64,000 bases of DNA from positions 124,001 to 188,000 of the forward strand of contig JAFSCJ010000003.1 in NCBI GenBank assembly GCA_017436845.1, given 5' to 3'. This document shows, in pieces, positions 16,046-20,644 of this stretch (position 1 is the stretch's first letter; each line of letters begins with the position of its first letter). This DNA comes from Muribaculaceae bacterium. GTDB taxonomy: Bacteria; Bacteroidota; Bacteroidia; Bacteroidales; Muribaculaceae. Below the pieces are notes generated by a model. That model made no database searches. It saw only the letters and a program-made list of their open reading frames with translations, and was not told where the DNA came from. The translations under genes and the position numbers were made by a program.

Positions 16046-16078
16046 AATTAAAAAGGGCATTCTTTGCCCTTTTTAATT
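16046..16078. terminator. bidirectional rho-independent terminator between converging operons
   Basis: A perfect 14-bp inverted repeat, AATTAAAAAGGGCA (16046-16059) and TGCCCTTTTTAATT (16065-16078), around a 5-base loop. The A and T runs serve both strands. It ends the glycosidase/SPOR operon rightward and the his operon leftward, overlapping the last codons of hisB. Confidence 0.92.
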
Positions 16079-17222
16079 ATAAAGTGCCTTTCGTTGAAGG
16101 CAAAGTGTATTTGAAAATATCTCGGCGTATAGCCATTTTTATTGCCCGAGCAAGTCCTTTGAAAATTCCTTCTATCTTGTGATGCTCGTTAGTCCCTTCG
16201 GCCCTGATGAACAGGTTCATGCGAGCACTGTCGCTAAGGCTTTTGAAAAAGTGCAGGAACATTTCAGTGGGCATATCTCCGATTTTCTCACGTTTAAATT
16301 CTGCGTCCAACACAAGCCAAGGTCGTCCACCAAAATCAATGGCAACAGTACACAAGCAATCGTCCATTGGAAGGACATAGCCATATCGTTCTATTCCGCG
16401 TTTGTCGCCAAGGGCTTGTCGCAAGGCATCGCCCAATGCAATGGCTGTATCTTCAATCGTGTGGTGTTCATCAACATGAAGATCTCCAACGGTCTTGATT
16501 TTTAAGTCTATTCCGGAGTGGCGACCGATCTGTTCAAGCATGTGGTCAAAAAATCCAAGTCCTGTTGAAATTTGACATTTGCCTGTACCATCAAGGTCCA
16601 CTGAAACTTCAATTTTTGTTTCAGAGGTGTTGCGTGTTACCATAGCCTGGCGTGAGCCCCCTTGAAGAAATTCTGAAACTTTGTCCCATGATGTTGTAAC
16701 GATGCTTGTCGTTTCAGATAACCCTTTTTCGTTGAGTTCTGATGCAACATCGTCAATGTCGCGTAGCAAAATAGCTTTACAACCAAGATTTTTAGCAAGT
16801 TGCACATCGCTGAGTCTATCTCCAATGACAAATGAATTTTCTAAATCATAATCCCCTGAGAGATATTCACCGAGCAAAGCAGTTCCCGGTTTGCGCGTGG
16901 GTTTATTCTCATGCTCAAAAGTGCGGTCGATAATAATATCGTCAAATGTAACACCTTCATTTTCAAATGTGCGCAACATCTTGTTGTGTGCTGGCCAGAA
17001 TGTATCTTCAGGGAATGAGTCAGTTCCCAACCCATCTTGATTAGTGACCATTACAAGCTTAAAAGGAAGGTGAGAAGCAATAAAATGCATGGCACGCAAT
17101 GCTCCCGGCACTAATTCAAGCTTTTCAAGTGAGTCGACTTGATAGTCGATAGGGGGCTCAACAATCAGAGTCCCATCACGGTCGATGAATAAGACACGTT
17201 GTTTATTTTGGGGTGTTGCCAT
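16077..17222 (-). CDS. hisB: bifunctional histidinol-phosphatase / imidazoleglycerol-phosphate dehydratase
   Basis: This 381-aa fusion covers steps 6 and 8 of histidine synthesis. The N-terminal HAD phosphatase (about 1-175) has LFIDRDGTL with D14 and D16. The C-terminal dehydratase (about 190-381) has the two metal-binding histidine motifs [15 protein letters not shown] and EHHKIEG. The bifunctional form is known from enterobacteria and some Bacteroidota. Its start overlaps the end of hisC by 20 bp, indicating translational coupling. It is the last gene of the operon; hisH, hisA, hisF and hisI do not follow and must lie elsewhere. Confidence 0.95.
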
Positions 17223-18246
17223 ATTCAGTTAGTTTTTCTATTAAAAGAGCATTTTCAGCATCGTTGCCTATTGTTAGTCGCAAACATTCACCACACTTGT
17301 GTACACGAGTGCGATTTCTTACTATGACTTTCTCGTCACGCAAATAATTGTATATAGCATCGGCATCACTCACCTTAACGAGTAAGAAATTGGCATCGGA
17401 AGGATAGATGTGCTTTACATCTGGGAGAGTTGACAATTTTTCAGCAAGGGCGTTGCGGGCATCGATTAGTTCTTTTACAATTGCTTCAATGTGAGAGCTA
17501 TCTGCAAGAACTTTTAAAGCTTCTTGTTGAGTGAGTTCGCTGATATTATAAGGATATTTTACTTTATTGTAAATATTGATTATATCTGTTGAGGCATAAG
17601 ATATACCGAGTCTGATAGCCGCGCTTGCCCAAGCCTTAGAAAACGTCTGCATGACTATCATGCGAGGATAGTCATTGAGGAACTGCACCATTGATCCAAT
17701 AGGAGAGAAGTCAATATAAGCTTCGTCAATGATTGTTATACCATTAAAGCGAGAGCATATCTCTTTTATTTGTTCAAGAGGGAATGCATTTGCAGTGGGG
17801 TTATTTGGAGAACATATCCACACTATCTTTGTGTGTTCATCGCAAGAGTTGAGAATAGCATCAACATCAAGAGAGAAGCCATCATTGAGGCTCACTCGGC
17901 GATATTCTACGTCATTGACATCGGCACACACCTCATACATCCCATAGGTGGGCTCTATAGCAACAACATTATCAACACCGGGACGACAAAATACACGATA
18001 GGCAATATCTATACACTCATCGCTACCCACTCCGAAGAAAATATTCTTAGGATTGACACCTCGATATACACCTAATTTCTGTTTTACCTCCATTTGAAGA
18101 GGGTCGGGATAGCGATTGTATTCACATATGCGACTATTCTCGTTTGCGTCAAGCCAAGCAAGAGCTTCACCGGTAAATTCATTGCGTGCGCAAGTATATG
18201 GTGTTAAATTCCAAATATTAGGTCTGACTAATTCTTTTAATGTCAT
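17203..18246 (-). CDS. hisC: histidinol-phosphate aminotransferase
   Basis: This 347-aa fold-type I PLP enzyme converts imidazole acetol phosphate and glutamate to histidinol phosphate. Visible are YNRYPDP near the N-terminus, SPNNPT (146-151), DEAYIDF (174-180) and the PLP lysine in TFSKAW (K204), followed by the phosphate-binding arginine in AAIRLG. The length is usual for HisC. It starts 6 bp after hisD and overlaps hisB by 20 bp. Confidence 0.96.
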
Positions 18247-18252
18247 AATTTG

Positions 18253-19542
18253 TTAGCTATTTAGTGCATTAATGCGGAGAGTCATAGCCATTTTGTGAGC
18301 CATGAGATCTTCATTTTCTGCCATTATTTCTACCGCTTTTCCTATAGAGCTAATACCTTCAGGTGTTAGCTCTTGGAATGTTATTTTTTTGCAAAAGCTA
18401 TCAAGGTTGACACCGCTATAAGCTGTGGCATAACCCGATGTTGGCAAAGTGTGATTTGTCCCTGAAGCATAATCACCGGCGCTTTCTGATGAATATTGAC
18501 CAATAAATACAGAGCCTGCATTTATTACTTTGTTGCACAATCTGATTGCATCGGCATGGTTTATTATCAAATGTTCCGGTGCATAATAGTTGGAAAAATC
18601 CATTATTTCATCATCGTTTTTCAATAGAATTATGCGACTATGATTGAGTGATTTTTCCATCATTTCGCGTCGTGGTAGCAATGATAATAATCGTTCTATT
18701 TCTTGTGGAAGTTTTTCAACAAGAGTCTCTGATGTTGTAAGTAAAATAGATTGGCTGTCGGGACCATGTTCTGCCTGAGATAGGAAATCGGCAGCGACAA
18801 AATCGGCACGAGCATTATCATCGGCAATAACCAATACTTCTGAAGGCCCTGCCGGCATATCAATGGCAACTGCTGTTTGTCCCACTTGCTGCTTGGCTTC
18901 CATGACAAATCTGTTTCCCGGACCGAATATTTTATATACAGGAGCAATAGACTCTGTTCCGTAGGCCATTGCTGCAATAGCTTGAGCTCCACCGGTTTTG
19001 TAGATGCGATTTACACCGGCAATCTTTGCAGCATATAAAATGGCATTGTGAATTTTACCATTTTTTCCGGCAGGAGAGCATAAAGTAATTTCTTCACATC
19101 CGGCAATACGAGCAGGGATAGCAAGCATCAGTACAGTTGAAAATAATGGCGAATTTCCTCCGGGAATATATAATCCTACTTTGGTGATGGGTACTGCTTT
19201 TTGAACGCATTTTACACCTGGAACAGTTTCAACAGAAATAGTTGTCATCTTCTGTGCAGCGTGAAAAGCCGATATGTTTTTTGCTGCAAGGTTTATCGCA
19301 TCTTTAAGTTTGTCAGAAATAGAGGCTTCAGCCTCGTCGATCTCTTGTTGAGAAACGCATAAAGAGGATAGCTGTACACCGGTAAATTTGTGCTCATATT
19401 CAATAATAGCGTTGTCTCCATTATTGCGCACATTTGTGATGATATCGGCAACAATTGTTTTCACCTCGTTGGCAGTTTCAGCAATAGCACGTTTGCAAAG
19501 AGGAGCCCAATCTTTTCTGTCGGGGTAACGTAGTATTTCCAT
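18253..19542 (-). CDS. hisD: histidinol dehydrogenase
   Basis: This 429-aa enzyme oxidises histidinol to histidine in two NAD-dependent steps. Conserved blocks are present: PGGNSPLFSTVLM, GGAQAIAAMAYGT, the GPGN loop, DMPAGPSEVLVIADD, the zinc/catalytic block SQAEHGPDSQ, and YAPEHLI. The length is typical. It lies 6 bp after hisG in the same operon. Confidence 0.97.
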   Translation of the reverse strand: MEILRYPDRKDWAPLCKRAIAETANEVKTIVADIITNVRNNGDNAIIEYEHKFTGVQLSSLCVSQQEIDEAEASISDKLKDAINLAAKNISAFHAAQKMTTISVETVPGVKCVQKAVPITKVGLYIPGGNSPLFSTVLMLAIPARIAGCEEITLCSPAGKNGKIHNAILYAAKIAGVNRIYKTGGAQAIAAMAYGTESIAPVYKIFGPGNRFVMEAKQQVGQTAVAIDMPAGPSEVLVIADDNARADFVAADFLSQAEHGPDSQSILLTTSETLVEKLPQEIERLLSLLPRREMMEKSLNHSRIILLKNDDEIMDFSNYYAPEHLIINHADAIRLCNKVINAGSVFIGQYSSESAGDYASGTNHTLPTSGYATAYSGVNLDSFCKKITFQELTPEGISSIGKAVEIMAENEDLMAHKMAMTLRINALNS

Positions 19543-19548
19543 TGTGAA

Positions 19549-20415
19549 TTAAAGTATCATTTTTTCGATATCAAGAGCAAGAATACCTTCAGCACCTTCG
19601 GCTCTTAGACGACCAATAATTTCCCAAAAACGTTTTTCCTCGATAACAGTGTGAATTGAACACCAGTCGTTGTTGGCAAGAGGTAGTATTGTAGGGCTCT
19701 TAATGCCGGGTAGAACTGACAATACATTGTCGAGTTTCTCACGAGGAACATTCATCAAGATATATTTTTTCCCTTCAGCAGCTTTAACAGCGTCGAAACG
19801 GAATAATAATTCATCGAGAATTACTTGTTTCTCTTCAATTAGTTTTTTCTTGCCTGAACTGATTAGTACTGCTTGTGAGTCAAGAACATTCTCAACTTCA
19901 GTCAGGTTATTGCTCACGAGAGTTGAGCCCGAAGAAACGATATCAAATATTGCGTCGGCAAGACCTATGCCTGGAGCAATTTCAACAGATCCGGTAATGA
20001 CATGAATATCGGCATTGATACCCTTTTCTTTGAGGAATTTAGAGAGAATTACAGGGTAGGAGGTCGCAATCTTACGATTGTTAAACCATTCAAGCCCGGT
20101 GTAGTCAATGCGTTTGGGTATAGCCAATGAAAGGTGGCAACGGCTGAAACCAAGTTCTTTGAGAATTTCAACGTTTTTGTCCTTTTCCAACACCTCATTC
20201 AGGCCCACGATACCAATGTCGGCAATCCCTGATGCTACAGAATCGGGGATATCATCATCGCGAAGGAATAATAGTTCCACCGGGAAATTGCGTGATGGAA
20301 CTAAAAGAGTGCGCTTTACAGCAGTTAGTTTTATACCTGCTTCGCCAAGCAATTCCATTGTTTCGTCATACAGACGACCTTTTGATTGAACTGCAATTCT
20401 TAGTCTTGTTTCCAT
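19549..20415 (-). CDS. hisG: ATP phosphoribosyltransferase, long regulatory form
   Basis: This 288-aa enzyme performs the first, committed step of histidine synthesis (PRPP + ATP). It is the long form, with a catalytic domain (AVQSKGRLYDETMELL at the start; the PRPP-binding segment DAIFDIVSSGSTL about 164-176) and a C-terminal ACT-like regulatory domain (from about 215) that in this family binds histidine for feedback inhibition. As the first structural gene after the leader, it would be controlled both by feedback and by the upstream attenuator. Confidence 0.96.
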   Translation of the reverse strand: METRLRIAVQSKGRLYDETMELLGEAGIKLTAVKRTLLVPSRNFPVELLFLRDDDIPDSVASGIADIGIVGLNEVLEKDKNVEILKELGFSRCHLSLAIPKRIDYTGLEWFNNRKIATSYPVILSKFLKEKGINADIHVITGSVEIAPGIGLADAIFDIVSSGSTLVSNNLTEVENVLDSQAVLISSGKKKLIEEKQVILDELLFRFDAVKAAEGKKYILMNVPREKLDNVLSVLPGIKSPTILPLANNDWCSIHTVIEEKRFWEIIGRLRAEGAEGILALDIEKMIL

Positions 20416-20449
20416 TATTATCTGTTGTTTTTATTATTTCTATTTAATT

Positions 20450-20484
20450 AAAAAAGAAACCGGTTACCAAGAGAGGAAGCCGGT
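20450..20484 (-). terminator. his operon attenuator (intrinsic terminator before hisG)
   Basis: On the minus strand ACCGG(C)TTCC (20484-20475) pairs with GG(T)AACCGGT (20468-20459) around a 6-base loop and is followed by TTTCTTTTTT (20458-20449). The 5' arm is shared with a competing stem: GCTTGGTGATTAT around the hisL stop (20531-20519) can pair with ATAATCGTTGACCGGC (20494-20479), leaving one bulged T on one side and GTTG on the other. The two structures exclude each other, as in classical attenuation. Confidence 0.85.
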
Positions 20485-20522
20485 CAACGATTATCTGTTA
20501 TAGCCAAGATAAATACATATAA

Positions 20523-20585
20523 TCACCAAGCCTCCTTCAAGCTGATGCCGTGATGATGGTGATGTGATGTAAGTAAATTGGTCAT
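20523..20585 (-). CDS. hisL: his operon leader peptide with five consecutive His codons
   Basis: A 20-codon frame reads MTNLLTSHHHHHGISLKEAW then TGA. The five adjacent histidine codons (20564-20550) mark it as a leader peptide. A ribosome stalled there for lack of charged tRNA-His would leave the stop-codon region free to form the antiterminator stem (20519-20531 with 20479-20494). A ribosome reaching the stop would cover that region and let the terminator at 20450-20484 form. It lies 107 bases upstream of hisG and about 30 bases after the promoter. Confidence 0.9.
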   Translation of the reverse strand: MTNLLTSHHHHHGISLKEAW

Positions 20586-20613: not shown

Positions 20614-20644
20614 CAAAGTTATAATAAATCATTTAAAAAACCAA
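20614..20644 (-). promoter_or_regulatory. his operon promoter, Bacteroidota type
   Basis: On the minus strand TTG (20644-20642), exactly 20 bases, then TAACTTTG (20621-20614), matching TTG-N19-21-TAnnTTTG. Transcription should start near 20607, just upstream of the leader peptide. Confidence 0.8.

Follow-up and report, generated by a model that had tools for sequence, protein, structure and literature searches.

Introduction

In the attenuation of the trp operon of Escherichia coli (trpL), segments 1:2, 2:3 and 3:4 compete for pairing, and the stalled ribosome directly decides the outcome. The locus analyzed here shares several features with the hisL attenuator found in E. coli and Salmonella (Rfam His_leader RF00514): hisG is the first gene, it is preceded by a short leader with a run of His codons, and an intrinsic terminator is combined with an alternative antiterminator pairing. 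A comparative study on attenuators by Vitreschak and colleagues in 2004 reportedly included the Bacteroidetes among the groups with candidates.

According to a survey dating from 2010, leader-peptide systems were known only from Proteobacteria, Actinobacteria and the Firmicutes cases described in the survey itself (PMC2965389). In bacilli, a His leader peptide occurs before hisZ and hisS* (PMC2965389); these leaders likewise combine a His-rich peptide with a premature terminator, in another phylum and in front of other genes. Within the phylum studied here, leader-peptide attenuation was suggested by "strong clues" in amino-acid operons of Flavobacterium psychrophilum, and the main-text passage proposing this same mechanism names no operon or RNA structure (PMC9723704). 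Short ORFs resembling leader peptides were also reported in 5' UTRs of Bacteroides thetaiotaomicron (PMC7366714). No prior description of his structures in Bacteroidota was found in the literature searched, most subscription papers lying outside it. The element described below, located in front of hisG in a Muribaculaceae bacterium, is very probably a ribosome-mediated transcription attenuator of the hisGDCB operon, judging from its sequence and those of its relatives.

Results

The his operon, its promoter and its leader

The window, i.e., the whole stretch of DNA analyzed (64,000 nt), covers positions 124,001 to 188,000 of contig JAFSCJ010000003.1 in the assembly GCA_017436845.1 of a Muribaculaceae bacterium. 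The attenuator, upstream of hisG, and the his genes are all carried by the minus strand, and prmC is the divergent neighbor of the hisG locus. The genes and the elements preceding the leader stop codon are as follows (window positions):

19549-20415, minus strand: hisG, ATP phosphoribosyltransferase, first gene of the operon (NCBIfam TIGR00070 and TIGR03455, above cut-off)
18253-19542, minus strand: hisD (NCBIfam TIGR00069, above cut-off)
17203-18246, minus strand: hisC (NCBIfam TIGR01141, above cut-off)
16077-17222, minus strand: bifunctional hisB (NCBIfam NF003937, above cut-off)
20614-20644, minus strand: Bacteroidota-type promoter read from the sequence, -33 TTGG (20644-20641) and -7 TAACTTTG (20621-20614), spacing 19 nt
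20523-20585, minus strand: his leader peptide ORF (hisL-like) of 20 codons, MTNLLTSHHHHHGISLKEAW followed by a stop, read from the sequence; His-rich ORF conserved in Bacteroidales and class-wide
20550-20564, minus strand: five consecutive His codons (CAT CAC CAT CAT CAC) read from the sequence, regulatory, forming part of the protector 5' strand

The downstream genes hisD, hisC and hisB (16077-19542) presumably belong to one operon with hisG. The promoter, which the original prediction had called readable, sits 28 nt 5' of the leader ATG. Of the 58 divergent leaders, 31 have the motif TAnnTTTG at 15-80 nt on their 5' side, as compared with 5% of the shuffled sequences, and 26 of these 31 also show an upstream TTG. 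Four relatives with HisG sequences 78-81% identical (L014, L042, L043, and L044) carry no His leader and show a promoter-like sequence near hisG instead, which suggests that the attenuator has been lost in these strains.

The 20-codon peptide and its five His codons are present as had been claimed. Five His residues within eight codons of a short ORF were obtained in only 2 of 5000 shuffles of the 400-nt upstream region of this locus, and both CAT and CAC are in use across the leaders while His is retained. No Shine-Dalgarno sequence was detected 5' of the leader ORF; in Bacteroidia, Shine-Dalgarno pairing is not used by the ribosome (PMC9976891).

Conservation of the leader

The 400 nt located 5' of the hisG start were compared in Bacteroidales hisG loci and in 80 loci sampled throughout the phylum. 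An ORF starting with ATG, at most 60 codons long and including at least four His residues within eight codons, was identified in 110 of the 153 upstream regions. Among the 7650 shuffles, 22 yielded such an ORF, and the reverse strands yielded none. His-rich leaders recur throughout the Bacteroidales. In the phylum sample, where ATG, GTG and TTG starts were all allowed, 36 loci belonged to other families of the class; every one of them had at least three His residues within eight codons, and 28 had at least four (shuffles: 5.7 and 0.3%, respectively). Outside the class, the corresponding figures were 30/44 and 28/44 (shuffles: 6.0 and 0.4%). The genomes without any His-rich leader among those sampled outside Bacteroidia number 14 out of 44 (L123-L127, L129, L132, L140, L143, L145, L153, L154, L156, and L162).

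A leader is found together with a terminator at least as stable as -8 kcal/mol in 102 hisG upstream regions. According to the original prediction, a His run and stems that were not conserved in relatives would speak against it; the leader, terminator and antiterminator were found to recur class-wide, the pairing being kept through changes in the sequence.

The three competing stems

Three alternative, competing structures can be drawn:

20450-20485, minus strand: intrinsic terminator, GACCGG (20485-20480) with CCGGUU (20463-20458), then UCUUUUUU (20457-20450); hairpin fold, compensatory changes in relatives
20519-20536, minus strand: antiterminator 5' strand, AGGAGGC (20536-20530), UGGU (20528-20525) and GAUUAU (20524-20519); fold energy, co-evolution
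20474-20494, minus strand: antiterminator 3' strand, AUAAUC (20494-20489), ACCG (20484-20481) and GCUUCCU (20480-20474); fold energy, co-evolution
20514-20571, minus strand: protector stem (1:2), AUCACCA (20563-20557) with UGGUGAU (20528-20522) and UACAU (20571-20567) with AUGUA (20518-20514); best ribosome-free fold, co-evolution

The terminator, predicted at 20450-20484, was recovered as a hairpin followed by UCUUUUUU at 20485-20450, ending 34 nt before hisG. With its six outer pairs and an internal loop it has a dG of -10.6, which is weaker than most. It was not listed by a simple terminator scan, probably because its loop exceeds the length allowed by the scan. In a hand-registered alignment of ten sequences from close relatives, two of its pairs show compensatory changes and 100% of the cells are paired.

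The 3' strand of the antiterminator overlaps the 5' arm of the terminator. The competing stem proposed originally (20519-20531 with 20479-20494) is real, and it makes up only the inner part of the structure: taken as the sole antiterminator it was rejected on energy, since it amounts to -1.7 kcal/mol alone versus -12.4 kcal/mol for the outer helices (20536-20530/20480-20474 and 20528-20525/20484-20481). The strongest conserved pairing is that of AGGAGGC (20536-20530) with GCUUCCU (20480-20474), along with UGGU and ACCG, and the best fold, at -17.5, combines the outer helix with the GAUUAU/AUAAUC pairs of the earlier stem. An equally strong antiterminator pairing occurred in 1 of 200 shuffles. 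At 20537-20530 this strand reads AAGGAGGC, a strongly Shine-Dalgarno-like sequence within the leader ORF, of a kind that the ribosomes of the host group do not use; relatives show GGGAGC or GGAAGC at the same site.

The protector stem, which makes use of the His codons, had been missed previously. When the free RNA was folded with ribosome edges assumed from general knowledge, a ribosome stalled at the last His codon yielded the antiterminator (-18.9), a ribosome at the stop codon yielded the terminator, and the protector plus the terminator formed with no ribosome; these are the three states required by the attenuation model.

Co-evolution and spacing

To the 58 divergent leaders, thinned by similarity, we applied a test in which each leader's own strand pairs were compared with all the cross pairs, taking the single strongest duplex and ignoring kinetics. 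With row and column effects allowed for, own antiterminator pairs exceeded the cross pairs in strength by 4 kcal/mol (z -11.4; 0 of 20000 permutations), and the His-codon strand of the protector paired with its downstream segment with a z of -9.8, while the negative control, consisting of the His codons and the terminator arm, which are unpaired in the model, gave -0.3; these z values may be influenced by residual kinship among the thinned leaders. Both alternative stems thus co-evolve; covariation in alignments of hisG upstream regions had been named as a check of the original prediction. Taken individually, the antiterminator is not significant in about one third of the 58 leaders. In the ten-sequence alignment, three of its pairs are changed on both sides, as compared with 0-1 in slid controls, and its covariation score lies within the range of the shuffles (66/500) because conservation is high among these ten sequences. 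The support for antiterminator co-evolution comes mainly from the class-wide test.

The distance from the last His codon to the antiterminator 5' strand has a median of 14 nt (interquartile range 11-16), as compared with 19 nt (8-32) in the shuffles, and amounts to about 13 nt in this locus. A start at 14 nt lies slightly past the point to which a stalled ribosome is expected to reach. Among the significant leaders, the standard deviation of the distance is 11.7 nt when it is taken from the stop codon versus 3.8 nt when it is taken from the His codons, which is a threefold difference approximately. In this locus and in L007, the antiterminator strand starts 5' of the stop codon; in L003, L006 and L041, the stop codon comes just before this strand. 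Relatives thus differ in the position of the stop codon, and it is the distance to the His codons that they keep. This spacing fits a strand that is free when the ribosome is on the last His codon and covered one or two codons later.

Mechanism and alternative explanations

Given a leader, three competing stems and patterns of conservation, co-evolution and spacing which the sequences compared suffice to establish, the following mechanism very probably operates. When charged tRNA-His is ample, the ribosome would pass the His codons and reach the stop codon (20525-20523), where it would cover the antiterminator 5' strand, and the terminator would fold ahead of hisG. If charged tRNA-His ran short, the ribosome would halt on the His codons and open the protector stem; the antiterminator 5' strand, about 13 nt ahead, would then pair with the terminator 5' arm and hisG would be transcribed. 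In an untranslated leader, the protector would fold and transcription would terminate. Four features of the attenuator class are present: a His-rich ORF, a terminator before hisG, an antiterminator exclusive of it that a ribosome halted on the regulatory codons would leave free, and a protector stem forming without translation. A fifth, read-through that rises when the charged tRNA is scarce, is predicted. The conserved leader, the co-evolving stems and the spacing argue for the control by ribosome position that had been predicted. Three steps of the mechanism are inferred: translation of the leader, stalling governed by charged tRNA-His, and a change in read-through.

In some lineages the ends of the peptides are identical: relatives in the Bacteroidaceae and Prevotellaceae share YHHHHTCRS, for example, and QLHHHH(L/F)HYCSQAMC recurs in several genomes of one genus. 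This would be expected if the nascent peptide itself arrested the ribosome and charged tRNA-His were not the signal sensed. The overlap of these ends with the antiterminator strand explains their conservation, however; class-wide, little is shared except for the His cluster, which can be interrupted by Tyr, Arg, Cys and other residues, and the leaders precede histidine genes, for which a sensor made of His codons is to be expected, so that an arrest peptide is very improbable. Even less probability can be granted to translational control, whereby translation of the leader would affect ribosome loading on hisG rather than the termination of transcription: reinitiation over short distances has been put forward as a way in which leader genes enhance translation of the following gene (PMC4833913), but the leader stop codon here is 107 nt away from hisG, and a hairpin with a U-run lies in between in most relatives. 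A hairpin serving as a constitutive terminator or a processing site, next to an incidental His run, is just as hard to credit, since the His cluster is kept class-wide and the alternative stems co-evolve, although the fold z-score of this locus taken alone is a modest -2.06. The element is a genuine, deeply conserved his attenuator of a known kind, with a mechanism inferred from strong comparative evidence.

Other attenuator candidates in the same genome

Two further elements were read from the sequence alone. Upstream of leuA (L178, contig 14), at a distance of approximately 160 nt, there is a leader MNDLLNLFLIFIILVLGLIM, ending in a stop, with a terminator-like hairpin AACCUUUC...GAAAGGUU, the arms of which (AACCTTTC/GAAAGGTT) are followed by a T-run; this candidate is probably a leucine attenuator. 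Likewise about 160 nt upstream of ilvD (L180, contig 2), the leader MINQYTQLLQVVVVVLRSQEG, also ending in a stop, has five consecutive Val codons and is followed by a hairpin GAUGCCUUCC...GGAAGGCAUC with the arms GATGCCTTCC/GGAAGGCATC, making it a probable candidate for a branched-chain attenuator. No comparable leader was found upstream of the aspartokinase genes or hisS in this genome, and none of its other runs of five CAY codons was convincing as a further his leader.

Discussion

We lean, with some hesitation, towards regarding these elements as compact his attenuators that make up a family spanning this class of Bacteroidota and uncatalogued in Rfam, in which a nearly fixed spacing of about 14 nt lets the stalled ribosome gate the antiterminator directly. 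If this is true, transcription and translation would be closely coupled in bacteria with ribosomes that pay no heed to Shine-Dalgarno sequences. If the switch works as proposed, ribosome-position control of transcription would operate throughout the Bacteroidia, which have promoters and translation initiation unlike those of E. coli, and the coupling of transcription to translation could be probed in gut Bacteroidota with the leader as a simple, endogenous reporter. The class spans gut, soil and water bacteria, among which a well-known type of switch is found to be widespread. The his leader is a well-supported RNA family without a matching Rfam model: His_leader RF00514 gave no match at the gathering score or at E values up to 5, and the best match in a permissive Rfam search was a chance L20-leader far under its cut-off.

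The comparison with the enteric system does not bear out the claim that the control works exactly as in enteric bacteria. In E. coli K-12, the his antiterminator begins 41 nt past the last His codon, leaving room for an extra hairpin, whereas the same method gives about 13 nt here, and the extra hairpin between the leader ORF and the antiterminator, which is part of the enteric six-segment his layout, is absent from this locus. Enteric hisL has seven His codons; the present leader has five, along with a Bacteroidota promoter and no Shine-Dalgarno sequence. The short distance from the His codons to the antiterminator makes this a compact, four-segment layout of the trp type. The logic of the competing segments is the same as that of E. 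coli trpL, His being sensed here instead of Trp by means of an unrelated sequence.
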